Assembly: GCA_020072585.1 (NCBI GenBank)
Contig: JAIQGL010000034.1
Location: 1 to 64,000 of the forward strand
DNA from: Terriglobia bacterium
GTDB taxonomy: Bacteria > Acidobacteriota > Terriglobia > Terriglobales > Acidobacteriaceae
DNA length: 64,000 nucleotides
Reading direction: 5' to 3'
Made by a program: the position numbers and the translations under genes. This document shows positions 1 through 13,870 of the stretch, piece by piece. The notes below the pieces were generated by a model. That model was not told the origin of the DNA. It saw only the letters and a program-made list of their open reading frames with translations, and did not search any database. The number at the start of each line of letters is the position of its first letter. The stretch's first letter is position 1.

Positions 1-139
1 CGCCTTGGAAAACGCTGCGCGTTTCCCACTTTCCCACAGCCTCGACGGCTGCGGGCCTCAACTTAAAAGTGATATGCTCGAAACCCCAAACCAGGAGAAT
101 GTCTCACTACGAATGGACTAAAGATGGGGGGCAGGTCAA

Positions 140-284
140 ATGCTCCGCGACGATGATGGTTCAGTAATGTTTACGGCACATTCTACGGCACACTACGATT
201 TGTGCCGGAAACAACTGGGTAACTTGTTGATTTTATGACGCGCCCTGAGAGATTCGAACTCCCGGCCTTCTGATTCGTAGTCAG
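140..284. repeat. Left direct repeat of the island (att-like)
   Basis: This segment is repeated in the same orientation at 13062-13198. The two copies differ by a few substitutions and one short insertion in the left copy, where a GGCACA-containing stretch is doubled. The right part (238-284) matches the 3' half of tRNA-Arg exactly except for one base just outside the acceptor stem, and identity stops at the anticodon stem, a typical crossover point for tyrosine integrases. The left part (140-237) is homology beyond the tRNA end. This looks like one end of an integrated element. Sequence further left (1-139) shows no gene I can recognise. Confidence 0.8.
238..284 (-). other. tRNA-Arg 3'-half fragment (att remnant)
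   Basis: On the minus strand this stretch carries the anticodon, the 3' side of the anticodon stem, the T-arm (GTTCGAAT context) and the 3' acceptor strand of tRNA-Arg(ACG), but no 5' half. It cannot fold into a tRNA and is best explained as the duplicated target left by integration into the tRNA gene at 13153-13226. Confidence 0.8.
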
Positions 285-491
285 CAGTCGGAAATCTCGA
301 AGAAGTATTTCTCAATTTATTCAACAAGATATCCCTAACTTGCGCTCGCACGAAAGGTATTGCCAAGGTTGCAGAAGTGGCTAGAAGTTGACAGTCGGTT
401 ATCGACGTATGGCACATTCATGGCACATTCCAGATTGCGATGTGCTGATGCCATCTGCGCTACTACCTGCAAGAACGCATCCACGAAGCGA

Positions 492-893
492 CACTTCTTG
501 GGTTATGCGGCCCGCTACATCCGGAGACCTCTCATTGCGCAACATCGATTCCAGGAAATTGATGGACCCGTAGTTAAATTCTTGACGAAAGATACTGCCA
601 CAAAAGAGACCGTCTTGGATGAGATTCCTAAAGACGAACTTATCCAGATTCTGGCGGATCATGTACCGGACAAATACGGGCAGTCCGTCCGCTACTATGG
701 CTTGCTAGCGCCGCGTTCCCGGAGTTGCGTTTTCACAAGCCTGCTTAAGTTGCTGGGTAAAATGCGCCACCCTCGTCCTCGACGTTTATCATGGGCTGAG
801 ATGATCAGCCGGTACTTTAAGAGAAATCCTTTGATCGATAATCGCGGTCAACCGATGCATTATGTTGGTTGGCACTGTCCAGTTGCAGCGTAG
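492..893 (+). pseudogene. IS91/IS801-like transposase, 5'-truncated
   Basis: The reading frame ending at 893 encodes the C-terminal part of an IS91-family (Y2, Transposase_32) transposase. Recognisable pieces in order are GYAARYIRRP, a VKFLTKDTATKE stretch, LADHVPDKYGQSVRYYG, LLAPRSR, and the terminal PRPRRLSWAEMI ... PLIDNRGQPM segment usual for this family. The N-terminal zinc-finger and catalytic tyrosine regions are absent. The frame is open back to 360, but residues before about 492 do not resemble a transposase. It sits just inside the left island boundary and is probably inactive. Confidence 0.7.
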
Positions 894-1723
894 GCTGCGG
901 CTTCCAGATATCTCGAATAAAAGACTTGATCTCCCTCTTACGTACACACACATGGCCATGCCACGCCCACTTGTGCACATTCCGAACTGCATTGAACGAC
1001 ATCTCTTCCTGTAAATCCACTGCTTTCTCATTGGAACTGAACTTCTTTTTGCACATGTATGAACTGAATTTTTGTTTCCCCTATAGATAGATTTAAGGTA
1101 GTGAGCTAATCTGTTCGAACACTTGAGGTCATACCCGGCAAAATCTCGATACATCGGGCAAGTCTCAGGGTTTCGACCAGGATGTCGCCGGAGTTCCTGG
1201 CCCTACTCCCAGATCTGGACCGGAGTGGTCAACCGTCTGCCGGGATTATTTCAGACTGCGCCCCCTTGCCTGTTTACGAGACACTCAATAAGCTGCCCAA
1301 GAAGCGCGATGAATCAGTGACTTAGCCAGGGGGAGCAGCAACCTTTTTGAACGCCGTGCTTCCTCTTGCGAATCACCCGGATTTACCACCATCCCATTTC
1401 GAACACGAAGGGGCGTGCGGGCAACTGATCGAAGTACATAATTCTTTTGGTATTTCGTTGCACGCCGTGATGCTTTGAAGCTCAAAACCCACGAACCGGA
1501 AGAGTTCAGCAGATTTTAAGTCCCCCTCTCAATTCCCCGAACCCACCTAAGCCTCATGATCAGCGGCTTCTCTGAGACCTGCAACTTTTGAACGGTAAGG
1601 ATCGGTAGGCTCCAATAAAGGGCTGGTCGGTCACAAGTCACACTTTTTCCTCGCGTGAACTGCGGAGCGCTAGGCCCGGGTTGGACGCCTCGTAATGTCG
1701 CCCATACGTTTCGTTTCCTACAG
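894..1723. other. Gene-poor stretch, possible remnants
   Basis: No convincing gene is seen in these 830 bp. One short plus-strand frame (ATG at 1182, stop at 1325, 47 codons, open upstream to about 1105) has a protein-like composition, and a minus-strand frame occupies 1285-1485. I recognise neither, and they overlap each other. The area is consistent with decayed DNA between the transposase remnant and the end of the chemotaxis operon. Confidence 0.4.
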
Positions 1724-2830
1724 CTAAGGATGCGGGATAAGCGAACTTTTCTGCGCTTGCGGCAGCCGCGAACTGCCGAGAAGGAAGCCAGGAATCTCAT
1801 GCAGGGACAGCACGTGGTCCACTGCACCTGCCGTGATGGCCTGCTTGGGCATGCCAAACACTACCGACGTGCTTTCGTCCTGAGCTATGGTGCAAGCGCC
1901 GGCGCGTCGCATTTCCAGTAATCCAAGTGCGCCGTCGCTGCCCATTCCTGTCAGGATTACACCAATAGCATTGGAGCCAACCGACTGCGCCATCGATCGG
2001 AACAGAACATCCACGCTGGGTCGATGACGGCATACCAGCGGCCCGTTGTTGACCTGGAGGACACGGTGTCCGCCAACCCAGTGCACAGATGTATGCCGGT
2101 TTCCGGGCGCAATGAACGCGCATCCGGGTGTCAACCGGTCGCCGTCCGCGGCTTCTTTCACGCTTATCCGGCAAATCGTATTTAACCGGTCGGCAAAGGC
2201 TGCCGTGAAGACCTCCGGCATGTGTTGCACGATCACGATTGGCGGAGAGTCAGGCGGCATAGCGGTCAAGATGTCGGAAAGCGCTTCGGTGCCGCCGGTT
2301 GAGGCGCCGATCGCAATGATCCTGTTGATGGGCCTGGCAAAGTGACGGAGGGCCTTGCCAGGGGGCGTGATCGCAGGAGTTGCTGGTGGCGGCAGCAGCC
2401 CACGGGCGCGTACACGGGCCTGAGATGCAGAGCGCACCATATCGATTAACGTCACGGCTGACTCGTGCAAAAATCCGTCCACTCCCAGCTTAGGCTTGGT
2501 CACAATTCCGACTGCGCCGAGATCCAGTGCGCGCAATGCGGCATCAGTGCCGTGCGCCGCCACACTGGAGCAGATCAGCGTCGGTACCGGATCTTCCGCC
2601 ATTATGTTGCGCAAGAACGTCAACCCATCCATGCGTGGCATCTCCAGATCCAACAGCAGCACATCCGGACGGACTTGTTTCATTTTGTTGAGGGCGATGA
2701 GGGGATCGGCTGCCACGCTTACCTCAATGTCGTCCTCCTGCGTAAGGACGGCGTGCATCACTTGCCGCACCACGGCGGAGTCGTCAACTACCAGAACTTG
2801 AATACGATCGCCTTTTTTACGATGTTGCAT
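1724..2830 (-). CDS. cheB: CheB, protein-glutamate methylesterase/deamidase
   Basis: CheB removes methyl groups from, and deamidates, chemoreceptors in the cytoplasm, opposing CheR. The N-terminal receiver has VVDDS (about 14-18) and the phospho-acceptor D61 in LLLDLEMPRMDG. A proline-rich linker follows, then the CheB catalytic domain with the triad S177 (IGASTGG), H203 (VQHMPE) and D299 (GMGSDG). At 368 residues it is of usual length. I chose the ATG at 2830, which overlaps the end of cheR by 14 bp, over a longer frame to 2914 that would lie inside cheR. It is the last gene of the operon. The tail after the catalytic domain (SSRLPQAQKSS...) is not conserved. Confidence 0.95.
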   Translation of the reverse strand: MQHRKKGDRIQVLVVDDSAVVRQVMHAVLTQEDDIEVSVAADPLIALNKMKQVRPDVLLLDLEMPRMDGLTFLRNIMAEDPVPTLICSSVAAHGTDAALRALDLGAVGIVTKPKLGVDGFLHESAVTLIDMVRSASQARVRARGLLPPPATPAITPPGKALRHFARPINRIIAIGASTGGTEALSDILTAMPPDSPPIVIVQHMPEVFTAAFADRLNTICRISVKEAADGDRLTPGCAFIAPGNRHTSVHWVGGHRVLQVNNGPLVCRHRPSVDVLFRSMAQSVGSNAIGVILTGMGSDGALGLLEMRRAGACTIAQDESTSVVFGMPKQAITAGAVDHVLSLHEIPGFLLGSSRLPQAQKSSLIPHP

Positions 2831-3881
2831 CGCACTGCGCTCCTGCCCCGGGCGTGTACACAGTTGGAATGACGGCGCGAATTTCACTGCCCATGGCATA
2901 CAAGCCTTCAGCATGACCGACGAAGAGATACCCGTCGCGCGACAGATACTTCAGCAGATGACGTATGATTCTTTCCCGGCTATGCGCGTCAAAGTAAATG
3001 AGCACGTTCCGGCAAAAGATGAGATCAAATGGGCCATCAACCGGGTACTTGGCGTCGTTAAGGTTCAGGCGAGAAAATCGAGCCAGGGCCCGAATCTCAG
3101 AGCCCGCCTTGAGCTTACCGGCCTGTTCTCCGATTCCTTTCAGCATGAAGCGTTTCAGGTATGCGTCCGGAATTTCACGTGCTGTTTCAATGGGCCAGAC
3201 GGCTTGCTCGGCAATGTTCAACACTCGCGTGGAAAGATCAGTTGCGATAATTCTGATGTCCCATCCGCTCGCCGCCGGAAAATGGTCCAGCAGAGTCATC
3301 GCGAGAGAATACGGCTCCTGCCCGGTGGAGCAGCCTGCGCTCCATACGCGAATGTTGCGCGTTTTCTGCCCGCGGGCCGCATCCCTGCTCCACCTGGGAA
3401 AAATGTCAGCATTGAGAAGTTCAAAATGCTTCGGTTCGCGGAAGAAATGAGTCTCATTCGTGGAAATTGCATCCAGCATCTGAATACGCTCTTCCGGCAT
3501 TTCTGTCAGCAATTGGTAATAATCTCTGAATGATTGCAGGTGATGGAAACGCAGACGTTTGGCAAGACGTCCGACCAGCAGCGGCACCTTCGCCTGTGAC
3601 AGCCAAATTCCGGATTCGCGATAAATCAATTCCTGGAAGCGCCGGAACTCTATTTCGCTAATTTGGCGAGACACAGGATCGAATGGCGACATGAGCCCTT
3701 GTGTTGCAGCCGGGCCACTCAGCTCATGCATCCTCTCCCCGGCGGATTCCGCAGTTGCCGGGACGCCTGCGAGATTCGAAATATCACCGCTCAATGGCGG
3801 AACTCCTCTCTGCTTCTTTGCTTCATAGCGGGCAGATACGCGACGTGCTCGTTCGCTGCCGAAGAGGCCTTGCTGCTTCAT
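2817..3881 (-). CDS. cheR: CheR, chemoreceptor glutamate O-methyltransferase
   Basis: CheR methylates receptor glutamates using S-adenosylmethionine. The all-alpha N-terminal domain begins near residue 75, with STNETHFFREP at about 140-150. The SAM-binding motif is SAGCSTGQEP at 181-190, followed by IIATDLS and the FCRNVLIYFD motif typical of CheR. There are about 65-70 extra residues before the domain; in-frame ATGs at residues 51 and 64 could be the true start, although the first ATG overlaps the preceding CheY gene by 4 bp (ATGA type), which favours translational coupling. The 3' end overlaps cheB by 14 bp. No TPR extension is seen. Confidence 0.95.
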   Translation of the reverse strand: MKQQGLFGSERARRVSARYEAKKQRGVPPLSGDISNLAGVPATAESAGERMHELSGPAATQGLMSPFDPVSRQISEIEFRRFQELIYRESGIWLSQAKVPLLVGRLAKRLRFHHLQSFRDYYQLLTEMPEERIQMLDAISTNETHFFREPKHFELLNADIFPRWSRDAARGQKTRNIRVWSAGCSTGQEPYSLAMTLLDHFPAASGWDIRIIATDLSTRVLNIAEQAVWPIETAREIPDAYLKRFMLKGIGEQAGKLKAGSEIRALARFSRLNLNDAKYPVDGPFDLIFCRNVLIYFDAHSRERIIRHLLKYLSRDGYLFVGHAEGLYAMGSEIRAVIPTVYTPGAGAQCDATS

Positions 3882-4249
3882 TCGCCAAGATACTTGTGCA
3901 GCAGGGTCATCAGCCTGTTTTCATTGACAGGCTTGGTCAGGAAGTCATTGCAGCCGCTCCCATACGCTTGCTCCACCATGGCTTCCTCGCCGCGCGTCGT
4001 CAGCAGGATGACCGGAATTTGCCTGGTTTCCTGCTGCTCTTTGAGCGCGCGGCAGGCCTCCAGGCCGCCCATGCGCGGCATCACCACGTCCATGAGAATC
4101 AAGTCGGGTTTATGTGCTAGCGCCACCTCAATGCCCTCCCTGCCATCAGACGCGCTGATCAGTTCGTAATTACTTCTCTTGCCGAGAATCATGCGACTGC
4201 TCAGCCGCGACGTGGGAGAGTCATCTACCAATAGAATTTTTTTCGTCAT
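3878..4249 (-). CDS. CheY-like single-domain response regulator (paralogue 2)
   Basis: A 123-residue stand-alone receiver with all landmark residues: DD at 9-10, phospho-acceptor D54 (ILMDVVMPRMGG), Thr at 84-85 and K106 (LTKPV). No output domain is attached. It lies between cheW and cheR and overlaps the cheR start by 4 bp. It closely resembles the second CheY at 9412-9795, sharing the VVMPxM and SGCNDxLTKP blocks, so the operon encodes two receivers. One may act as a phosphate sink or address a different target; that is inference. Confidence 0.93.
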   Translation of the reverse strand: MTKKILLVDDSPTSRLSSRMILGKRSNYELISASDGREGIEVALAHKPDLILMDVVMPRMGGLEACRALKEQQETRQIPVILLTTRGEEAMVEQAYGSGCNDFLTKPVNENRLMTLLHKYLGE

Positions 4250-4273
4250 CGGTATTCTCGCGTTCGGTTGCTA

Positions 4274-4870
4274 TCACAATTCAGTTGGCTGCTGAACCTC
4301 TTGTGGCTGTTCCAGAGCAGCCGGCAGGGCGTCACCGGGGTCGCCGGTTTCACCTGCGGTTTGCGCCGCTGCTGACGTCAGCAACTCTGGAACTTCACTC
4401 AGGCTGAGCAGTTCGTCCGTCGAAAGAACTTTCTCGACGTCCAGGATCAATGCGAACTTCTTGCCCAATTCCGCCACGCCGAGCAGGTAATCGACTCGAA
4501 CGCGCGTACCGAACGAAGGCGGTTCCTGTACCTCGTCACGGGAAAGGCCAATCACCTGGCTTACGGAATCAGTAATGACGCCAACAGTCGTGCTCTGGTC
4601 CTCAAAACAGCCTTCAAGGATGACGATGCAGGTGGTCTTCGTGACCGGGCGCTCCTCCATGCCGAATTTGACGGCCAAATCCACGACTGGAACTACGGCT
4701 CCGCGGAGGTTGATCACACCGCGGATCCAGTTCGGCGTCTTCGGCACGATCGTGATTGTGTCGTATTCGATGATCTCCTTTACCCTTGCAATCGTGAGGG
4801 CGTACTCCTCGCCCGCAAGCAGGAAAGTGAGATATTGCTGTTGTTCTACTGGCTCTCGCGTCGTTTCCAT
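4274..4870 (-). CDS. cheW: CheW, chemotaxis coupling protein
   Basis: CheW links receptors to the kinase CheA in the membrane-associated signalling array. The SH3-like CheW fold spans about residues 10-150: YLTFLLAGEEYAL, the hallmark IRGVINLRG near 46-54, VVPVVDLAVKFG, and GVITDSVSQVIGL. About 45 residues rich in Ala, Gln, Glu and Pro follow the domain and are not part of the family core. The start has an AGGAG ribosome site a few bases upstream. It lies directly downstream of the MCP gene (9 bp gap), as expected for a receptor-adaptor pair. Confidence 0.95.
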   Translation of the reverse strand: METTREPVEQQQYLTFLLAGEEYALTIARVKEIIEYDTITIVPKTPNWIRGVINLRGAVVPVVDLAVKFGMEERPVTKTTCIVILEGCFEDQSTTVGVITDSVSQVIGLSRDEVQEPPSFGTRVRVDYLLGVAELGKKFALILDVEKVLSTDELLSLSEVPELLTSAAAQTAGETGDPGDALPAALEQPQEVQQPTEL

Positions 4871-4879
4871 CTCACACTC

Positions 4880-6541
4880 CTAGAAATGAGTAAAATGCGC
4901 TTCCACCGAGGTGTCGCGTGGCTTGCCATTCGGTTTGCCGTTGGACTTGTCACCGGAACGGGTAAGTCCAGTCTGGAATGAGTCATGGATCGCAGGGGCC
5001 GGCATATGCCGCAGCAACGGACCCACGGAACTTTCGTTGCGGTCCACTTTGAAGAAGCTTATTAGCTGCTGCAGGGCTGCCGCTTGCGATGAGAGTTCCT
5101 CAGCAGTGCTGGTAAGTTCCTCGGCGGAGGAGGCATTGCGTTGCGTGACCTGGTCCACCTGGCCCATGGCCTTATTGATCTGATTCACACCGGAAGACTG
5201 CTCGCGCGATGCGGCTGCGACCTCCTGTACGAGCTCGGCAGTCTTCTTGATGGCTGGAACCAGGTCGCCGAGGAGCTTCCCTGACCGCTCCGCCACCTTC
5301 ACGCTTTCAACAGCCAGGGCGCTGATTTCTTTTGCCGCAAGTTGACTGCGCTCGGCAAGCCTGCGGACCTCGGTAGCGACCACGGCGAAGCCCTTGCCGT
5401 GTTCTCCGGCCCGGGCCGCTTCGATGGCGGCGTTCAAGGCGAGCAAGTTGGTCTGGTACGCAATCTCGTCAACAATGTTCACTTTTTCGGTAATGAATTT
5501 CATCGCTTCCGCAGTCTGGTTCACCACGCTGCCGCTTTCTTCGGCGTCACGCGCACCTTTGCTCGCCACCTGCTCCATCTGCCGGCTGTTTTCGGAGTTT
5601 TGCGTAATTGAGGCGCTCATCTCTTCCAGGCTGGAGGTCGTCTCTTCCACGGACGCAGCCTGTTCGCTTGTGCCTTGCGCCAACAAGGACGAGGAAGAAG
5701 CCACTTGCTGCGCTGCGGCTGCGATGGCGCCGGATCCTGCGCGCACCTGCGATACGATATCCGCTATTTTTGCCACAAAGCGGTTGAATTGCCGGGCAAC
5801 TTCACCCAGCTCGTCGCGAGACGCATCGTTCAACCTCCGCGTCAGATCGCCGCCGCCTTCCGCGATCTCCGCCAACATGCTTATCAGGCTGTTCAATGCA
5901 GTCGTGATGCCTCGGCCAATTGACACGGCAATGGTGGCCCCAACCACGACAGCAGCAAGAATAAATACCACGAGAATGACGAGCGCAGAGCTTGCTTCGC
6001 TGTGGACTTGCTTCTGCTTGACATCACCGAGACTGTTTTGCATCTCGATCAGGCTCGCTAAGGACTTCACGGCAGCGGCTGCAAACGGGGTGGTTGTCGC
6101 AGCCCTGTAGGTGGCCGCCTCATCGAGCTTCCCGGCATCGAGAAGGTTGAACCAATGCGGCCGCGCGTCAAGATACTTGCCATACCAGTCGTCCCAATCC
6201 TTCAGCCCTTGCAGTTCCGCTTGCGTACGGTTTCCAGAGCGATATGCTTTAAGATTGTCGTCGACCAGTTTGACCCACTTGCCCTCATCGCTGCGGATGC
6301 GGGCACGTTCATCGGGCTGCGCGGTGATGTAATTGGCGATTCCGAAGCGGAGCTGCCACAGGCCGCGTTCCGCATTTGATAGCTGCACCGACGATTGCAG
6401 GTTGTCGGCATAGAGACCTTCGAATTCCATTGACATAGTCCGGGTATAGTTCCAACCCACCACGCCCACACACGCCATCAGGAACAGCACAATGCCGAAG
6501 CCGAGGGCCAATCTTCTTCCAATAGAAATATTCTTGAACAT
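4880..6541 (-). CDS. Methyl-accepting chemotaxis protein
   Basis: Transmembrane chemoreceptor of 553 residues. TM1 is near residues 11-32. A roughly 150-residue periplasmic helical segment of the four-helix-bundle (4HB_MCP) kind follows, then TM2 near 185-207, a HAMP domain with the [12 protein letters not shown] region, and a cytoplasmic coiled-coil whose signalling tip reads [20 protein letters not shown] with [18 protein letters not shown] after it. The C-terminus lacks the NWETF-type CheR-docking pentapeptide and ends in an unusual His/Lys-rich tail. The ATG at 6541 has AGGAG six bases upstream; a GTG one codon earlier is less likely. It is the only receptor gene in the window; the ligand is unknown. 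Confidence 0.95.
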
Positions 6542-6575
6542 CACCTTCTCCTGTTTATCTGCTTCTTTTGCTTCA

Positions 6576-8249
6576 TTACGGCTGGCCTATGGAAGCCAGC
6601 TTTGCTGGTTGTGATTGAAAATCCCGCAACACGGTGGGCACATCCAAGATCAGGGCCACGCGGCCATTGCCAAGAATCGCGGAACCGGATATGCCCGGGA
6701 CATTCTTGAATATCGGGGGCAGGGGCTTGATTACAGTCTGCGTTGTACCGTAGAGATCTTCCACCGCCAAACCGGCGCGGCGCGAATCATGTTGCACTAC
6801 GATGACGTTCTGGCGTGGAGCGCGTTTGCCGGTAAAGCCAAAGTGGTCCTTCAGGCAAACGTAAGGGAGAGCTTCGCCTCGCAACCGCATCACGCCCGCT
6901 TTTTGTGCCGTACTATGTTCATCCGGCGGCAGCTCGACGCACTCAATCACCTGGTCGACAGGGATAACACAGGTCTCGTCGCCGACGCCGACGCCGAACC
7001 CGTCGATCATTGCGAGCGTTAGCGGGAGACAAATGTGAACGGTTGTCCCGACTCCGGGGCGGCTACCAACATAGACGCTGCCACGCAAACACTCGACATT
7101 GCGCCGGATCACATCCATGCCAACACCACGGCCTGAGAGGTCGCTGACTTCAGTGGCGGTGGAAAATCCGGATTCAAAAATCAACTGCCATACGTCATGA
7201 TCTGAGAGTCTTTCCGGATCTGCGACGAGCCCCCGCTTGCGCGCGAGCGCGACGATTTTCTGACGGTCCAGGCCGGCTCCGTCGTCGCTGACCTCGATCA
7301 TGATGCTACCGGCGGCGTGCATCGCCTTGACGGTTACGGCTCCAATGGGCAACTTACCCTGCGCCCGGCGAACGTCAGGAGGCTCGATTCCGTGATCGAT
7401 GGCGTTCCGAACCATGTGGAGGAGAGGATCCTTCAGGTGCTCGACGACCGAGGTGTCCACCTCGACGTCCTCACCTTCGATATGAAGCTGCGCCATTTTT
7501 CCGTGCGACTTCGCAAGATCGTGGACCGTCCGCGCGTAGTGGCGCAGAAGAGGGCCCACCGGAACCATGCGGGTTTTGACCACCATCTCCTGCAACTCTG
7601 AATGGAGCGCGTCAACAAATCGATGGGCCTCGCGGATCTCGTCAATGTTGACGTGCTCCTTGTCTACCAGCAGTTGAGCCATCCGTCCGCGTGCGATCGT
7701 GATCTCCCCTGTGAGATCCAGCAGCCGGTCGAGCTTGCCAACATCCACCCGCAGCGTCCGACTCGCTTCCCTGGCGGCGGGAGCAGCAGCACTTAGAGGA
7801 ACGTCTGTGACGTTCGGCCCGGCATCAGCAGCTCCACCGGGCTGTGCGGTGGTGCTGCCCGTTTTCTTCAACTGGTCCAGGATGCTCTTCAGCACTGCTT
7901 CCGCATTAGGCCCGATTTCATCGCTGCCTTCGCCCGCGGCAATGGCCATTTCCCGCAGTACGTCGACGGACGCAAGCAGTACGCTGGAGATGTCGCGGGT
8001 TACTTCAAGCTTGCGGGTCCGAACAGCGTCGAGCAAATCTTCAAGAGTGTGGGCGAAAGCAAGCAGACTCTGCAGTTCCAAGAGGGCTGCGTTGCCCTTT
8101 GCGGTATGGACAACCCGGAATATCGCCTGGATGAGTTCTTCACTGTCCGGTTGTGTTTCCAGCTCCAGGACGGATTGCTCCATCTCCGCCAGGCTCTCTT
8201 CTGACTCGACGAGAAAACTTTTTAGAATGAGGTCACGCTGAAGTTCCAT
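6576..8249 (-). CDS. cheA: CheA, chemotaxis histidine kinase (no P2 domain)
   Basis: CheA autophosphorylates on a histidine and passes phosphate to CheY and CheB. The P1 HPt domain carries H48 in [12 protein letters not shown]. After a low-complexity linker come the P3 dimerisation helices ([14 protein letters not shown]), the P4 ATPase with N-box [19 protein letters not shown] and [10 protein letters not shown], and the CheW-like P5 regulatory domain. Only a short disordered stretch separates P1 from P3, so the CheY-binding P2 domain appears to be missing. I chose the ATG at 8249, which follows the cheD stop by one base and has GGGGAA upstream inside cheD; the frame is open to 8270. Length is 557 residues. 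Confidence 0.95.
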
Positions 8250-8250
8250 C

Positions 8251-8793
8251 TCAGTTCCCCACCACTGCAACAGTTGTTTGGCCTGAATTCGTCCACATTC
8301 TTACCTTCCGCCCCAATTCACCACCGGTGTCGTTTGCCAGTACCGGGATGGAGTGGCGGGACAGAATCTCAAGCGCGATCGTCGCGTTGCGACTTCCGAT
8401 ATGATCGCCGCCTTTTTCGCGCAAGCTCTGGAACATGCAGGCACCGCCGAAGATCTTTGCCTTCAGATTCGCTGTCTTGCAGCCCAGACTATTGAGTTGC
8501 TCGATCAATGCGGCGATTGCGATGTCTCCGTAGCGCGACGTGCGCTGCCCGTCGCCGCTCCACAACGGCAACATGAAGTGCGTGGCTCCTCCTATCGCCA
8601 TCTGCTGCTCAAACAGGCACACGCCCACACACGAGCCCAAAATCATGCTGAGGATCATCGGTTCGGGTGAAGCGTGTGTTTGTCCCGCATGAAGGTAGAC
8701 TTCCGGCAAGGCGAGTGAGTGGTCAGATGGGGGCGCAATTGCGTCCTGCCGGTGATGGCTTTGGCTCAGTAGCATGTCCGCGTTCCAATCCAT
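8251..8793 (-). CDS. cheD: CheD, chemoreceptor glutamine deamidase
   Basis: CheD deamidates receptor glutamines. Its fold is recognised from the LGSCVGVCL motif with the catalytic Cys (residue 55 from this start), the ATHFMLP motif with the catalytic His (residue 72), and the C-terminal NDTGGELGRKV block. I prefer the ATG at 8793 because GAGGAA lies four bases upstream; an ATG at 8805 is the alternative. In organisms where CheD is studied it often partners with CheC, but no cheC is present here. It is coupled to cheA (one-base gap). Confidence 0.93.
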   Translation of the reverse strand: MDWNADMLLSQSHHRQDAIAPPSDHSLALPEVYLHAGQTHASPEPMILSMILGSCVGVCLFEQQMAIGGATHFMLPLWSGDGQRTSRYGDIAIAALIEQLNSLGCKTANLKAKIFGGACMFQSLREKGGDHIGSRNATIALEILSRHSIPVLANDTGGELGRKVRMWTNSGQTTVAVVGN

Positions 8794-8814
8794 AAAGTTC
8801 CTCATCAAGGTTGC

Positions 8815-9411
8815 TCAGGCACTGAATAAGCAGGCGCCTGAATACATCGATAACAATTGCAGTAATTCGTAGTCAGCGGCGTCAAAGCCAGTCCGTTGCG
8901 GTAGCAATTTATAAAAAATAAGTGCTCCGCGCGGTTCCGATTTATGCCAAACAGGGACAAAAGCGATAATCCCGAGCTCTGACCACAATGCGTTCCCGCA
9001 TCTGCTCGCATTCACGATTGTGATTTGGCCCCGCCCGACCTCGGCGGCAATTTGTTCCGCTCTTGCCATCAAAGCCTCCGCGCGATGCTCAGTGAGTCCC
9101 GACGACGCGAGAACTGACAAGCGGCCGTCTTCCTGAAGCGTGACGACCGCCATCTCTTCGCAAGCCATGAGGTTAGAACCTATCTCCAGCAATGCCTGCA
9201 ACACGTCATGCTCATGGACCGCGATCCTTAGTCTTTCGCTGGCGGTGTAGAGTTTCAACCAGACGGTATGCGTCTGGTCTCCAGGGGCGGTCTCAAGACA
9301 GCCATTCAGGCAACAGGCCGCACATCGATCGAGCGCCTGCTCCAGCCCGATGTCACCGTCATTGCCGGGGATTTGCGGGCATATTCTGTCGGAGCTGCAT
9401 TCTTCCATCAT
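8815..9411 (-). CDS. GAF-domain-like protein of the chemotaxis operon
   Basis: A 198-residue soluble protein. From about residue 50 it reads like a GAF sensor domain: helix VLQALLEIGSNLMACEEMAVVTLQEDGRLSVLAS, then IAAEVGRGQITIVNA and the strand FVPVWHKSEPRGALIFYKLLP, ending in a helix DYELLQLLSMYSG. The N-terminal 50 residues contain six cysteines, including a CAACC cluster and CLNGC, which could hold a metal or form disulfides. It starts right at the cheY stop codon (TAGATGATG) and is followed by cheD after 6 bp, so it is a bona fide operon member. Small GAF proteins occur in other acidobacterial and myxobacterial che operons; the exact role is unknown. Confidence 0.75.
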   Translation of the reverse strand: MMEECSSDRICPQIPGNDGDIGLEQALDRCAACCLNGCLETAPGDQTHTVWLKLYTASERLRIAVHEHDVLQALLEIGSNLMACEEMAVVTLQEDGRLSVLASSGLTEHRAEALMARAEQIAAEVGRGQITIVNASRCGNALWSELGIIAFVPVWHKSEPRGALIFYKLLPQRTGFDAADYELLQLLSMYSGACLFSA

Positions 9412-9795
9412 CTACTCTGCCTTCTCGGCCTCGAGATAGGCGTTCACCATCTCGAGCAGTTCGCGCCCATTGATGGGCTTAGTCAAGTAATCATTGCAGC
9501 CGCTGGCAAAGCCGATCTCAACATTGGCGGGTTCACCGCGGCTGGTCACCAGGATGATCGGCACACGCCGAAGTTTCTCAAGCTTGCGCATCTCGCGGCA
9601 CGCATCAAAGCCGTCCATCTTTGGCATGACCACATCCATCAGGATCAAATCAGGCTCTTCGGCGAGAGCCTTTTGAATCGCCTCCTGGCCATCCCGTGCC
9701 GTGACCAGGTTGTACTTTGTATATCTGTCGAACAGCATCTGCTCCATCAACAGCGTGGTGCTGGAATCGTCGACCAGAAGGATTTTTGGATTCAT
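9412..9795 (-). CDS. cheY: CheY-like single-domain response regulator (paralogue 1)
   Basis: A 127-residue receiver. From the ATG at 9795 the phospho-acceptor is D54 (ILMDVVMPKMDG), with VDDS near the N-terminus and LTKPI near the C-terminus. A TTG three codons upstream is possible but less likely. It lies near the 5' end of the operon and abuts the GAF gene. Its C-terminal acidic tail (EAEKAE) distinguishes it from the second CheY. Similarity between the two suggests duplication. No flagellar or pilus genes are nearby, so the motor it addresses cannot be named. Confidence 0.93.
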   Translation of the reverse strand: MNPKILLVDDSSTTLLMEQMLFDRYTKYNLVTARDGQEAIQKALAEEPDLILMDVVMPKMDGFDACREMRKLEKLRRVPIILVTSRGEPANVEIGFASGCNDYLTKPINGRELLEMVNAYLEAEKAE

Positions 9796-9848
9796 AGTCC
9801 TCAACCATCAACTCTCAAATTCAACCAGCGCGGTACTTGCAGCCGGCG

Positions 9849-10217
9849 CTAGAACGCAAACTCCATGCCGTGATCCAGCCTCTCCGGCGGGATGACTCCC
9901 TGTTTGTTCCACAAAAACTCCAGGGATGGACCGTGAAACGCCAGCCTCCAGGAGGTTATGCGCATTGATTTGGCCTTGCGCGGTGACCGAACGTACGTCA
10001 GCCCACCGTTGTCGTCATGAGCTGCGGTGACAGACGTATCTAGATTGGAGTTTTTCCGGGTCTCAACGCGTGACGGGATGACAGTCGCTTCCCGCTGGAC
10101 TTGCACCTGGGCATGGGCGGAAGAAAGCAGCCGCAACGCCGCGCAATTCGCTGCCGCAAACAGGCGCAACGCAAATGCACTTGCCCCTTTGCTCTCTATG
10201 AGGGATTTCTGGCCCAT
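9849..10217 (-). CDS. Small protein at the head of the che operon
   Basis: I do not recognise this 122-residue product. The ATG at 10217 has AGGAG six bases upstream, and the gene is co-directional with cheY 53 bp downstream, so it may be the first gene of the operon. Residues 15-38 are hydrophobic and Ala-rich, ending in SAHAQ, resembling a weak signal peptide; the rest is basic and without clear motifs. It could be a small secreted protein. Coding status rests on the ribosome site and context only. Confidence 0.45.
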   Translation of the reverse strand: MGQKSLIESKGASAFALRLFAAANCAALRLLSSAHAQVQVQREATVIPSRVETRKNSNLDTSVTAAHDDNGGLTYVRSPRKAKSMRITSWRLAFHGPSLEFLWNKQGVIPPERLDHGMEFAF

Positions 10218-10417
10218 CAACTTCTCCTGGCGAGACCGTCTACCTACCCGTTACACACGCGCAAATAATCCGGAAGCACGAATGTGCAGACATCCACGTT
10301 GAATGACAAATTGCGACAACATCTCACGCCGAGATATCTCCGGTCTTTCCGAGCACGCAAGAGGCAGACCTCGGCACTGCAATCGCTAATCGCAGCGGTT
10401 GCTTGTGAAAATAGGTT

Positions 10418-10681
10418 CTATCGCAATCTTGGCAATGTTTCCGTGAAAGTCACGAGCCATTTCGCGTTCTCCTGCGCGAAATGAATGCCTGAACGGGCTG
10501 GCTTCACTTCTAACTGCACTGCGGCGCAATGTAGACCATTTCGGAACGGCGGCAAAGTTACGATGGTACCGATTTTGTGATGCTCGTCACTGCATTTATG
10601 AAAAATGCGGGGGCTTACCATACGCGCCGGTTTGCTCTTAAGCTCCTTGTGCCCAGGAAGATTTACAGCCCCGCGGATCAC
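10418..10681 (-). CDS. Possible PilZ-like protein or remnant
   Basis: A minus-strand frame with a GTG at 10681, open further upstream to the end of the neighbouring gene at about 10745. The frame upstream of the GTG has a basic, Pro/Asn/Lys-rich start, and the body has an IRGAVN stretch, a central VTLPPF segment and a C-terminal GIHFAQENAKW that recall PilZ-like domains of other acidobacterial proteins. I cannot find a good start with a ribosome site. It may be a damaged gene. PilZ domains bind c-di-GMP, but the canonical RxxxR motif is not evident, so no function is claimed. Confidence 0.3.
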   Translation of the reverse strand: MIRGAVNLPGHKELKSKPARMVSPRIFHKCSDEHHKIGTIVTLPPFRNGLHCAAVQLEVKPARSGIHFAQENAKWLVTFTETLPRLR

Positions 10682-10742
10682 AATCTCAGCGGTGATACCC
10701 TTGGCCTTAGTCTTCGGGTTCGCTGGTTGCCCGCCGTTCGGT

Positions 10743-11168
10743 CTATTCTTGCTCCTTGTTCTTCCACTCCGGCAAGCCGACTTTATTCCCTGGGCAAAGC
10801 ATGAGGTGTTCCGACCTCAGGCCATGGGTGATGGACTGCTTGATTCGCTGCGGGATGCCCACTCCCTGCGCATTCAGGTCGCGGACCAGTTCATGCCGGT
10901 CGATTGGTTCGCCGACACTTTGCAGGCGTGTGATGATCGCGTCCAGAATCTGCGGACGTAGGACGAACCGCAGTTCCGGGTCAACGTCTTTCACAATCTC
11001 CTGCCATCGCGTCTGCGAATAACCTAGGCTAATGAGGGCCAGCCGGCAGCGCTCGGCTCGCTGGAGAGCATTGCGAAGATCGAGTAGCAGTGCCCCGACG
11101 TTGGACGCTAAGGGAGGGTTTCCGCTCCCCAAAGAAACTTCTGGCTCTTTCCGTCTTTCTCTAACCAT
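10743..11168 (-). CDS. Uncharacterised protein, possible winged-helix C-terminus
   Basis: A 141-residue soluble protein of unknown function. Residues 1-20 are basic. Residues 25-60 form an amphipathic helix (LLLDLRNALQRAERC), and residues 75-135 have alternating helices and a final KVGLPEW segment that resembles winged-helix-like folds. It is the last gene of a tightly spaced minus-strand block (10743-12306), starting 6 bp after the preceding gene. No catalytic motif is visible. Confidence 0.6.
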   Translation of the reverse strand: MVRERRKEPEVSLGSGNPPLASNVGALLLDLRNALQRAERCRLALISLGYSQTRWQEIVKDVDPELRFVLRPQILDAIITRLQSVGEPIDRHELVRDLNAQGVGIPQRIKQSITHGLRSEHLMLCPGNKVGLPEWKNKEQE

Positions 11169-11174
11169 TTCCTC

Positions 11175-11567
11175 TCACAAGGCCGCTCGAAGCACACCAA
11201 AGCTGGAGCCTGGGACCGCGAGTTGGTATAGCAGCCCGGCCTCAATGCGGAATTGCTCATAATTGGCAATGATGTGAATAGCAACGTCTCGCCACCTTTC
11301 CGGATCGCCAAAAGATTCCGGAATTTCCGAGCAAAGTTTCTTGAGATGCATTGCCCTCGTTTTCACTCGGTCGACGGCCCTGAGAACCTTCCGGTCTGCT
11401 GACAAATCGCACGCAAGTGCATCTATGACCTCATCCAGATTGCGCACCATGAGCCGGACACAGTCTTTGAATTCCGTCCAATCCCGGCATTCTGACAGTT
11501 CCAGGTGGTAGACCCTGACTACCAGATCATCCAGCGGTGTATCGCGGGCTATCGTTAGGGGTGTCAT
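11175..11567 (-). CDS. Uncharacterised helical protein
   Basis: A 130-residue, acidic and probably all-helical protein that I do not recognise. It is rich in Asp, Glu, Leu and Arg, has no signal peptide or membrane segment, and contains two cysteines near the middle. Its ATG overlaps the stop of the small membrane gene upstream (4-bp ATGA overlap), so the two are translationally coupled. It could be a cytoplasmic partner of the adjacent membrane proteins; that is inference from overlap only. Confidence 0.6.
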   Translation of the reverse strand: MTPLTIARDTPLDDLVVRVYHLELSECRDWTEFKDCVRLMVRNLDEVIDALACDLSADRKVLRAVDRVKTRAMHLKKLCSEIPESFGDPERWRDVAIHIIANYEQFRIEAGLLYQLAVPGSSFGVLRAAL

Positions 11568-11746
11568 ACTGTCTTGCCCCCTTCGGTGCCCAGGCTTGCT
11601 TCAATTCTGGCAAAAGCCGCTTCTATCTTCAGCAGGTCTGCCTCCGTGAGCTCGCGCGTGCCCCAGGGCGAAAGAACGACCACGATCCATGCCGCGACCG
11701 CAACAACATTGGCAATTTGGATGATCTGGCGTACTTGCAGTACCAC
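11564..11746 (-). CDS. Small single-pass membrane protein
   Basis: A 60-residue protein with one hydrophobic helix (residues 9-27, IANVVAVAAWIVVVLSPWG) followed by a charged helix rich in Glu and Ala. It starts at a GTG two bases after the stop of the upstream multi-pass gene and overlaps the next gene by 4 bp, so it sits in the middle of a coupled operon. Family unknown. Confidence 0.55.
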   Translation of the reverse strand: MVLQVRQIIQIANVVAVAAWIVVVLSPWGTRELTEADLLKIEAAFARIEASLGTEGGKTV

Positions 11747-11748
11747 GG

Positions 11749-12306
11749 CTAAAGGATAGTGCCACGCAATTGCTTTTGCCGCACCTTGTACGAGTACAGA
11801 AAACCGAGGCTAGACGCGATCCCAGCCAATAACCGCGACCAGGAAAGTCCAAGGTAGCGTGAGTATATGGCGATAAAGAAAAAAGCCACGGCAACACTCA
11901 ACTGGGATCCAAGTTCAATTCTATTTTCAATGAAACGAAGGGGCCACAGTCCAGCGAACGCAACGACCCCGCTGATGGCGACGAGTAATAACGCACCAGC
12001 CTTTTCTCTTTGCGGCACATTGAGCCCCGGCAGCACGCGGCGTCCGCATTCAATCAGGGTCAGGAAGGTCAGCACCGATATGCTATGGCTGGTCACATAG
12101 AAAACGTAGTAGTAGACTTCATAGCTCGCCGAATAGGCGATGGCGAGAAGCAGAACGCTCTCAAACGCAGCCGCGAACGAATATAGTGAAAACCACCGCA
12201 GCCTTTGATGAAGGCGTTTCTTACAGATCGAGAGGCAAAGAAAGAGCCTGCCGGCGATCAGAACAATCCAAATCGCCAGATCCGCACTGCTTATATAGTC
12301 TTTCAT
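11749..12306 (-). CDS. Multi-pass membrane protein, unknown family
   Basis: A 185-residue integral membrane protein with about five hydrophobic helices (approximately residues 9-25, 39-58, 62-82, 105-128 and 135-158). Arg/Lys-rich loops suggest an ordered topology, and the tail is basic (KVRQKQLRG). No catalytic motif is recognisable. It is the first gene of the four-gene block 12306-10743. Sequence and context do not allow a functional call. Confidence 0.6.
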   Translation of the reverse strand: MKDYISSADLAIWIVLIAGRLFLCLSICKKRLHQRLRWFSLYSFAAAFESVLLLAIAYSASYEVYYYVFYVTSHSISVLTFLTLIECGRRVLPGLNVPQREKAGALLLVAISGVVAFAGLWPLRFIENRIELGSQLSVAVAFFFIAIYSRYLGLSWSRLLAGIASSLGFLYSYKVRQKQLRGTIL

Positions 12307-12357
12307 TGGGCCACAGAACTGCCTTTCTTTCTGCGACCCGCATCATCGGGCGCGCAG

Positions 12358-12672
12358 CTATTTTCTTATCTGGCAGGGAATCCCAGGTCGACAGATCGGA
12401 ATTGGGCCGCCATCAAACGTCTTCGTTCCATCCTTGCAAGGAACGCCGGGCCGACAGAGCGGATCTGGGCCGCTGGACGGTACCGGTTGCTCAACCGAGC
12501 AGGGTTTACCTGGTCTGCAAAGCGGCTCTGGGCCGCCATCAAACATCTTCGTTCCAATCTGACAAGGCCTTCCAGGCAAGCAGATCGGCTCTGGACCGCC
12601 ATCCAGTGCCGCCACTCCGAACGCCGTTCCCAGCACTACAACCACAATCCCCAGCATGATCTTCGCTTTCAC
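12358..12672 (-). CDS. Secreted Cys-rich tandem-repeat protein
   Basis: A 104-residue protein with an N-terminal signal-like hydrophobic segment (residues 4-22), then four repeats of about 20 residues built on the pattern G-P-x-P-(I/L)-C-x-P-G-x-P-C, most preceded by DGG and followed by a short polar spacer (for example DGTKTF). Each repeat has two Cys four residues apart from a PG turn, giving eight Cys in total. The GTG start has GGAGAG upstream. DNA of repeats 1 and 3 shares near-identical stretches near 12406 and 12531, so expansion was recent. I do not know this family; it could bind a metal or form disulfide-knotted units on the cell surface. Confidence 0.6.
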   Translation of the reverse strand: MKAKIMLGIVVVVLGTAFGVAALDGGPEPICLPGRPCQIGTKMFDGGPEPLCRPGKPCSVEQPVPSSGPDPLCRPGVPCKDGTKTFDGGPIPICRPGIPCQIRK

Positions 12673-13061
12673 GTGCCTCTCCAGGGCCGCAGTAGCGGCT
12701 TGGCACGGATTCTAAGCGAAGATCAGCCCCGCAAGGCCCTCAAAATACCCATCCTGTATGCCACAATCTGAGGTCATTTCGGTAAATGCCCCAGAATAAT
12801 TAATGCTTTCGGAACGTGAGCCGAATAGCCGCATAAACACTGCACCAAATTGCGTTTTTGACTGGTTTTGAGCTGCAAAAAATCTTTTCAATCGCCGCAA
12901 AATCAATATGATTTAGATGGCTCAGTGCTTGCTGGACGAACTGCTGCTCTGGGCCAATACAATCAGGGGCCCATTCCTGTTGTGAGGAAGGGGTGCACAA
13001 GGATGTGAGAACTGCCATGCGGTATCAACATCCTGAACTGGACATCGTGCGTGAAGCGCTG
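12673..13061. other. Intergenic, no gene recognised
   Basis: About 390 bp between the Cys-rich repeat gene and the right island repeat. Only short overlapping frames without ribosome sites or motifs occur. It is relatively AT-rich and resembles non-coding DNA at the edge of an integrated element. Confidence 0.5.
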
Positions 13062-13198
13062 AATGCTCCGCGAACGATGATGGTTCAGTGATGTTACGGC
13101 ACACTACGATTTGCGCCGGAACCAAAAACTGGATAACTTGTTGATTTTATGGCGCGCCCTGAGAGATTCGAACTCCCGGCCTTCTGATTCGTAGTCAG
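13062..13198. repeat. Right direct repeat of the island (att-like)
   Basis: Direct copy of 140-284. It spans about 90 bp of sequence downstream of the tRNA-Arg 3' end and the 3' half of the tRNA itself (13153-13198). Identity with the left copy ends at the anticodon stem. Here the tRNA is complete because the 5' half follows on the right. Confidence 0.8.
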
Positions 13199-13226
13199 AC
13201 GCTCTATCCAGCTGAGCTAAGGGCGC
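13153..13226 (-). tRNA. tRNA-Arg (anticodon ACG)
   Basis: A 74-nt cloverleaf without encoded CCA. The 7-bp acceptor stem is GCGCCCT/AGGGCGC, with TA at positions 8-9, a D-arm GCTC/GAGC, anticodon stem TCTGA/TCAGA with loop CTACGAA (anticodon ACG, arginine), T-arm GGGAG/CTCTC with loop TTCGAAT, and discriminator G. It is the probable integration target of the island to its 3' side. Confidence 0.97.
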
Positions 13227-13351: not shown

Positions 13352-13870
13352 ATGCTCACAAGCTGGCATACGGTTCTGGAGATTGCGCTCCGCACCTCGG
13401 CGGTCTATGCCCTGGTGCTTATCGGGATTCGCCTGACGGGCAAACGCGAAGTGGGCCAGATGACGCCGTTTGATCTGACTCTTCTTCTCCTGCTTAGTAA
13501 TTCGGTGCAAAATGCCATGACAGGGTCGGACACTTCGCTCATGGGCGGCGCCACGGCGGCTCTAGTATTGCTCTCACTGAACTTTCTGCTGGCGGAAATT
13601 TCAGGGATGAACCGGCGTTTCCGCAAGATGATCCAGGGATCGCCGACTCTCTTAATTCACAATGGCCAGTGCATCATTCCCCACATGGCAAAGGAACACA
13701 TCTCCATGGATGAACTTGAGCGGGCCCTGCGCGAGCACGGTGTGGCCTGCGCCGGAGACGCAGCCCTTGCCGTGCTGGAAGTGGATGGCTCCATTAGCGT
13801 TTTGAAATATGACGACGTCCCGGACCAGGCCCGGCCACAAAAGCGGCTCAAATTTCTTCATCGGAATTGA
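13352..13870 (+). CDS. YetF/DUF421 family membrane protein
   Basis: A 172-residue protein with hydrophobic segments near residues 17-32, 38-52 and 62-82, followed by a cytoplasmic domain with GSPTLLIHNGQ and the helix MDELERALREHG, then ALAVLEVDGSISVLK. This order is diagnostic of the DUF421/YetF family. Molecular function of the family is poorly known (YetF-type proteins have been linked to spore and envelope properties in Bacillus). It is the first gene beyond the tRNA on the chromosomal side. A GGAATTGACCGGCCAC duplication overlaps the stop codon. Confidence 0.85.
   Translation: MLTSWHTVLEIALRTSAVYALVLIGIRLTGKREVGQMTPFDLTLLLLLSNSVQNAMTGSDTSLMGGATAALVLLSLNFLLAEISGMNRRFRKMIQGSPTLLIHNGQCIIPHMAKEHISMDELERALREHGVACAGDAALAVLEVDGSISVLKYDDVPDQARPQKRLKFLHRN

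Follow-up and report, generated by a model that had tools for sequence, protein, structure and literature searches.

For cis-mobilizable elements, a described course is that the integrase is lost while the element ends are kept and that another element then accretes (PMC5704250), and tandem islands at ssrA with direct repeats of this RNA gene are described for Dehalococcoides (PMC3146451). The locus considered here is a nine-gene chemosensory operon beside tRNA-Arg(ACG) in a Terriglobia bacterium, within the first 64 kb of a contig of 70,139 bp (C14, JAIQGL010000034.1), a stretch referred to below as the window. Its genome (G000) comprises 6.9 Mb in 74 contigs and is 96.8% complete, and window position 1 is a contig end. 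We consider it likely that the operon is the cargo of a decayed integrative element (A) with another member of its family (B) behind it.

As in the elements of PMC5704250, integration genes have been lost at this locus, the ends are kept and a second element is adjacent at an RNA-gene site. However, the loss is partial here, with a remnant of the integrase surviving, and the cargo is a chemosensory operon. The Dehalococcoides islands of PMC3146451 are likewise stacked in a variable region and bounded by direct repeats of an RNA-gene 3′ end, but involve a serine recombinase and the tmRNA gene, whereas a tyrosine recombinase and tRNA-Arg are involved here. The type of island is thus known, while its cargo is uncommon. 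Among the literature titles and abstract openings searched, no description of a chemosensory operon on a tRNA-bounded island was met, which is not a claim that none is in print. Chemosensory kinases on mobile DNA are common on plasmids, where 437 of 72,556 records have CheA homologs at E <= 1e-30, all below 60% identity; these differ in being carried by plasmids and not by a tRNA island.

The operon is flanked by two homologous sequence copies at window positions 139-284 and 13062-13198 (85.3% over 150 aligned columns, E ~1e-44), which are distinguished by indels of 13, 3 and 1 bases and have in common an exact core of 46 bp (239-284 = 13153-13198) within the 146-bp repeat. An earlier note on this DNA had described a direct repeat of 137-145 bp around some 12.9 kb, with an intact tRNA at one end and a copy of its 3′ half at the other, and its coordinates and length are correct to within 1-2 bases. 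The sole tRNA identified in the window by ARAGORN is the intact tRNA-Arg(ACG), while the left repeat copy has the 3′ part alone, beginning one base inside the anticodon stem; the duplicated 3′ half expected at the far end of a tRNA-targeted integrative element is therefore present. The note had also raised the possibility that the repeats are dispersed elements. Searching G000 with the repeat at E <= 0.001 returned the two window copies and one weaker match, the latter being the 3′ part of a tRNA-Arg(CCG) on contig C65, and the repeat is thus no dispersed element.

In each repeat copy the terminal part of a tyrosine-integrase gene (its 3′ end) is followed first by GGCACA repeats and then by the tRNA 3′ half. 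Toward the tRNA, the right copy shows the integrase C-terminus, one TACGGCACA repeat and the tRNA 3′ end, and the left copy is arranged likewise, with TACGGCACA present twice and one base deleted from the integrase end. GGCACA repeats flank the left core on both sides, with two ATGGCACATT repeats on the side of 285-445. This motif was defined after inspection of the sequence; all five window matches (both strands) to its 11-letter form lie at element ends, and these make up five of the 13 matches to a looser form.

A related element in G007, another of the nine genomes (G000 included) of the genus comparison, shows how a single element is organized. On contig C12 of that genome, an open integrase gene (PF00589, 78 bits) is followed by GGCACA-type repeats and an intact tRNA-Arg(CCG), while on its contig C15 the tRNA core occurs with no tRNA and precedes a stretch 76% like window 240-445. 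From their matching cores we infer that C12 and C15 bound one element; the search behind this comparison scored at most four candidates per genome. The two cores share exactly 51 bp and no part of the integrase. A single element thus yields a short repeat, and two integrase-proximal ends are required before a repeat can take in the integrase end; because the repeat in the window is longer than the 51 bp of the single G007 element, two stacked elements are indicated. The G007 element resembles element A in integrase family, end repeats and far-end sequence, but has an intact integrase, another tRNA and no che operon in the stretches examined. G007 also has a junction of integrase, repeats and tRNA of this kind at tRNA-Val, and G002 and G008 have theirs at tRNA-Lys. 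In G000 there is also a stretch (L128, 1500-1602) beside an intact tRNA-Val(TAC) (1625-1701) that is 76% like window 337-432 and has GTGTGCCGTA repeats; it is likely to mark one end of a further member of this family.

Element A would extend from about 285 to 13198, carrying the operon and keeping about 31 integrase codons. In the order of events that we propose, a tyrosine recombinase inserted it at the part of tRNA-Arg(ACG) from the anticodon stem to the 3′ end, and the tRNA would have stayed whole because the element supplied a 3′ half. Element A would then have shed nearly all of its integrase, so as to resemble now a cis-mobilizable element with ends and no recombinase. Element B would lie directly behind A, the left repeat copy being the junction of the far end of A, the tRNA core and the integrase end of B; an insertion sequence would later have split integrase B, and the assembly is broken there. 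Both ends of A are matched to G007, and integration and transfer genes appear to be lost. The island yielded no intact integrase, only the 31-codon C-terminal remnant of integrase A, and no relaxase, conjugation or transfer gene was recognised among the Pfam-scanned island open reading frames (ORFs), the scan extending as far as the contig end. Accordingly, present mobility is unsupported, and with only a remnant of its integrase in the island the element is filed as a decayed remnant and not as an active element. The route for horizontal acquisition of a signalling array proposed in the note therefore holds as regards carriage on an island, but not as regards present mobility.

The insertion sequence at 1-138, presumably IS3-like by its terminal sequence, interrupts the left repeat copy at 138/139, and in the assembly one of its ends occurs at nine places and the other likewise at nine. 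When the nine genus genomes were searched with the G007 integrase, a fragment in G000 was identified at the start of contig C7 (66% over 126 aa). This fragment halts at ...GCGCTGAATG against the insertion-sequence end, window 139 picks up with AATGCTCCGCG, and the remnant of integrase A, which is 91% identical to the fragment over 74 nt, correspondingly reads GCGCTGAATGCTCCGCG. A 4-bp duplication, AATG, is present at the C7-C14 pair of insertion-sequence ends. It is very likely from these matches that C7 and C14 join across the insertion sequence, and likewise very likely that element B runs left from 284 with contig C7 as its remainder. On C7 (12,316 bp) there is a gene whose match to sugar isomerases is weak and falls below the Pfam cut-off, as well as a nonribosomal peptide synthetase (NRPS) gene (L217, 3370-12315), with three stretches each of condensation and AMP-binding type, which runs off the contig and is probably cargo of element B. 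Contig C52 was considered as the left neighbor, as it carries a 249-aa gene discussed below and the same insertion-sequence end; however, that insertion-sequence end recurs at nine places and the only contig matched by C52 is C21 (3 bp), and the link is not claimed.

In the genus, a DUF421 gene adjoins tRNA-Arg(ACG) in G000, G003, G004, G006 and G008. No tRNA-Arg was found in the fetched stretch beyond this gene in G001 and G007, and in G002 and G005 the contig ends before the tRNA position. On the 3′ side of the tRNA, the distance to the 249-aa gene is 526 bp in G003 and about 35 kb in G006, where both are on one contig, so the site is variable. Some of the intervening genes of G006 are shared with contig C7 of G004, and many were not found in the compared stretches. 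The note had suggested a search for an empty tRNA-Arg site in relatives, and G003 apparently provides one example. In G004 and G000 the two tRNA flanks are on separate contigs. The bases 3′ of the tRNA in both repeat copies were not found in the compared relatives, with the exception of a likeness of ~27 bp in G004. G007 was rejected as an unoccupied site, its tRNA being inverted relative to a lipoprotein gene when compared with G003. This reversed orientation (L105 on G007 contig C18, about 6310-6883) is a sign of rearrangement at the tRNA.

Operon-type CheA was identified in two of the nine genus genomes, G000 and G005, the two being 49% identical and at different loci, and no other genus genome was found with the operon at the tRNA-Arg locus. 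The case that the note regarded as adverse, the same operon at this locus in a relative lacking the repeat, was thus not encountered. The G005 operon sits beside htpG and is cut by a contig end, in a genome that is 81% complete. Genus orthologs of G000 and G005 are 75-93% identical (DUF421 87%, Ku 93%, 249-aa gene 75%) compared to 49% for CheA. In a wider comparison of 61 genomes (G000 and 60 relatives), the CheA matches listed, other than that of the operon itself, are at most 43% identical, except that of G005 (49% over 272 aa, cut by the contig end). In a phylum sample of 396 genomes, in which at most three candidates were scored per genome, 54 (G000 included) match CheA at E <= 1e-90; identity reaches 46% or more in 17 genomes other than G000, none of which belongs to its class. 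Among the best 80 of 535 matches in a scan of named genomes were the closer CheA of Terriglobia bacterium SRVP_33 (58%) and that of Acidobacteria bacterium palsa_360 (60%), two genomes which may share the class of G000. In a CheA tree of 59 rows these two, G005 and G000 form one group (100/96), nested in a clade that also has rows from Geothrix, Manganitrophus, myxobacteria and others, while all nine rows from the family of G000 are in the opposite half of the tree. Support for separating G005 from the remaining three members is weak (94/65), with only 46% of the G005 row filled.

The chemosensory operons of L231, L232, Geothrix and others have a related CheA and broadly the same gene order as that of the window. 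They differ in that no match to the G007-type integrase was found in eight stretches, and in that the GAF or CheD protein is unmatched in some, CheW precedes the methyl-accepting chemotaxis protein (MCP) in L196, and MCP and CheW are unmatched in L231. L231 was considered as a second island, having a tRNA-Glu(CTC) (7843-7917) ~0.5 kb upstream of its che operon, but the tRNA 3′ half is unrepeated in the stretch and no island is claimed. The operon of the window is assigned to accessory DNA because it was found at this locus in no other genus genome, the 3′ flank of the tRNA is variable, integrase remnants and element ends are present, and its CheA does not follow the genus. Together these favor its horizontal gain as a unit, from outside the genus.

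In chemotaxis systems MCP, CheW and CheA form an array which is adjusted by CheR, CheB and CheD, with CheY carrying the output. By domain content, the operon products would form one such array, with output via two CheY proteins. PF00771 (FlhA/SctV family) gives a match of 110 bits on G000 contig C42, above the Pfam cut-off. The two frames involved score 91.5 and 40.4 bits with NCBIfam FlhA, for which the cut-off is 772.1, and 68.5 and 55.8 with SctV, where it is 692.25, so flagellar output is unlikely. No FlhA equivalog was found in G000, and hence no sign of a flagellar system by this marker; a strong FlhA-family match was detected in one of the nine genus genomes only, G002. The output is probably non-flagellar and could involve type IV pili or another process. 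The C42 frames (L230, 1-2538 and 2578-3975) appear as FlhA/SctV-like domains fused to TPR-like stretches, far below both cut-offs.

The note had taken the repeat copies for attL and attR of a single element. An island of 12.9 kb with an unusually long shared sequence and nothing stacked would have the intact tRNA at one end, the 3′ half at the other and the cargo-filled interval that are seen. It would not account for the inclusion in the shared stretch of an integrase 3′ end, which is expected at one end of an element and occurs here twice, for the short, integrase-free stretch of 51 bp in G007, or for GGCACA repeats on both sides of the left core, and we regard it as unlikely. What stands of the proposed tRNA-Arg-bounded island is accessory DNA 3′ of tRNA-Arg. 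A chromosomal segmental duplication or IS91-type rolling-circle transposition, producing the repeat and bringing in the operon with no tRNA-specific recombinase, is suggested by the IS91-type transposase fragment just inside the left copy; it is highly improbable given that the repeat begins in the anticodon stem and includes an integrase end, and that G007, G002 and G008 show like junctions at tRNA-Arg, tRNA-Val or tRNA-Lys. Ancestry of the operon in the genus, followed by its loss from most members, is quite unlikely. In its favor, the two genomes out of nine that have the operon share the order cheY-GAF-cheD-cheA and a supported CheA group of four rows (100/96), and G005 is 81% complete, with its operon cut by a contig end; against this, the loci differ, CheA is far less conserved than the three genus orthologs, and the CheA of G000 joins two other genomes before G005, if weakly (94/65).

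Several points weigh against a decayed element A with B stacked behind it. There is no contrast in G+C between the island and the remaining window (0.555 and 0.551). The composition check proposed in the note gave little else: tetranucleotide distance is largest at the 5-kb steps from 1, 2501, 5001 and 7501 (0.172-0.197 vs 0.108-0.164 for the others; 24 steps), but the background is the rest of the same window and hence biased, and this was discarded as evidence of foreign origin. The integrase A remnant is short and its protein match to the G007 integrase is weak (E = 0.001). The left chromosomal flank of the island is unlinked in G000, and support for an unoccupied site comes from one genome, G003, among those with the stretch. 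The C7-C14 join is based on sequence and not on reads; a matching 4-bp duplication is seen in two of nine insertion-sequence copies only (pairs C7-C14 and C74-C40), two further pairs matching by 3 bp. A third tRNA core, marking the far end of B, was not found in the assembly, nor was any core on C7. The absence of FlhA is from one family search of a 96.8%-complete genome with a PF00771 match above the Pfam cut-off.

With its ends, integrase remnants, tRNA target and variable site visible, the locus offers a concrete anatomy for the horizontal gain of a whole chemosensory operon. It also suggests a rule for reading draft genomes: where the repeat of a tRNA half exceeds the recombination core in length, stacked elements may be the reason. 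The output of the imported array is a testable question, given that no FlhA is recognisable. It is a tentative and rather doubtful idea that a tRNA-targeting element family of the Acidobacteriota moves complete non-flagellar chemosensory operons, along with biosynthetic genes such as NRPS, between lineages; if true, signalling arrays would be exchangeable cargo plugged into output already in the new host.

The features of the island are given in the table below. The nine genes of the operon (1724-9804, minus strand) are all open frames in the order cheY-GAF-cheD-cheA-MCP-cheW-cheY-cheR-cheB, and include everything looked for in a complete chemosensory operon, namely MCP, CheW, CheA with Hpt and kinase domains, CheR, CheB and CheY. 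Domain matches thus bear out the cheYDAWRB genes, MCP and block of unassigned genes listed in the note.

Table. Features of the tRNA-Arg(ACG) island and its borders in the window.
Feature	Position	Strand	Evidence
End of multicopy insertion sequence, cutting left repeat copy; contig end	1..138		nine places in G000
Last codons of putative integrase B, one-base deletion vs A	139..167	+	...TMMVQ-stop, as right copy
Two TACGGCACA repeats, likely arm-type sites of element B	172..194	+	motif match
tRNA-Arg 3′-half core without tRNA, putative junction of elements A and B	239..284	-	46-bp exact core
Putative far end of element A, two ATGGCACATT repeats at 408 and 419	285..445		76% like G007 C15 over window 240-445
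IS91-type transposase fragment	474..719	+	Y2_Tnp, 55.7 bits
cheB	1724..2914	-	domain match
cheR	2817..3881	-	domain match
cheY, second copy	3878..4249	-	domain match
cheW	4274..4870	-	domain match
Methyl-accepting chemotaxis protein	4880..6544	-	4HB, HAMP, MCPsignal
cheA	6576..8270	-	Hpt, dimerisation, HATPase, CheW domains
cheD	8251..8808	-	domain match
GAF-domain protein of operon	8815..9411	-	domain match; matches in G005 and several related operons
cheY, first operon gene	9412..9804	-	domain match
Small-ORF block without Pfam match	9849..12672	-	0 families, 7/7 tested ORFs
C-terminal remnant of putative integrase A, 31 codons and stop	12996..13091	+	57% over 23 aa to G007 integrase; 91% over 74 nt to C7 fragment, E = 5e-25
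TACGGCACA repeat, likely arm-type site of element A	13095..13103	+	motif match
Intact tRNA-Arg(ACG), putative integration target	13150..13226	-	ARAGORN
DUF421 gene, conserved 5′ neighbor of tRNA	13352..13870	+	family match and genus comparison

Seven small ORFs of the block at 9849-12672 were tested and gave no Pfam match at E <= 0.001. One of these (12358-12672, minus strand) encodes 104 aa with a hydrophobic N-terminus and a 21-residue repeat of the form DGGPEPLCRPGKPC.

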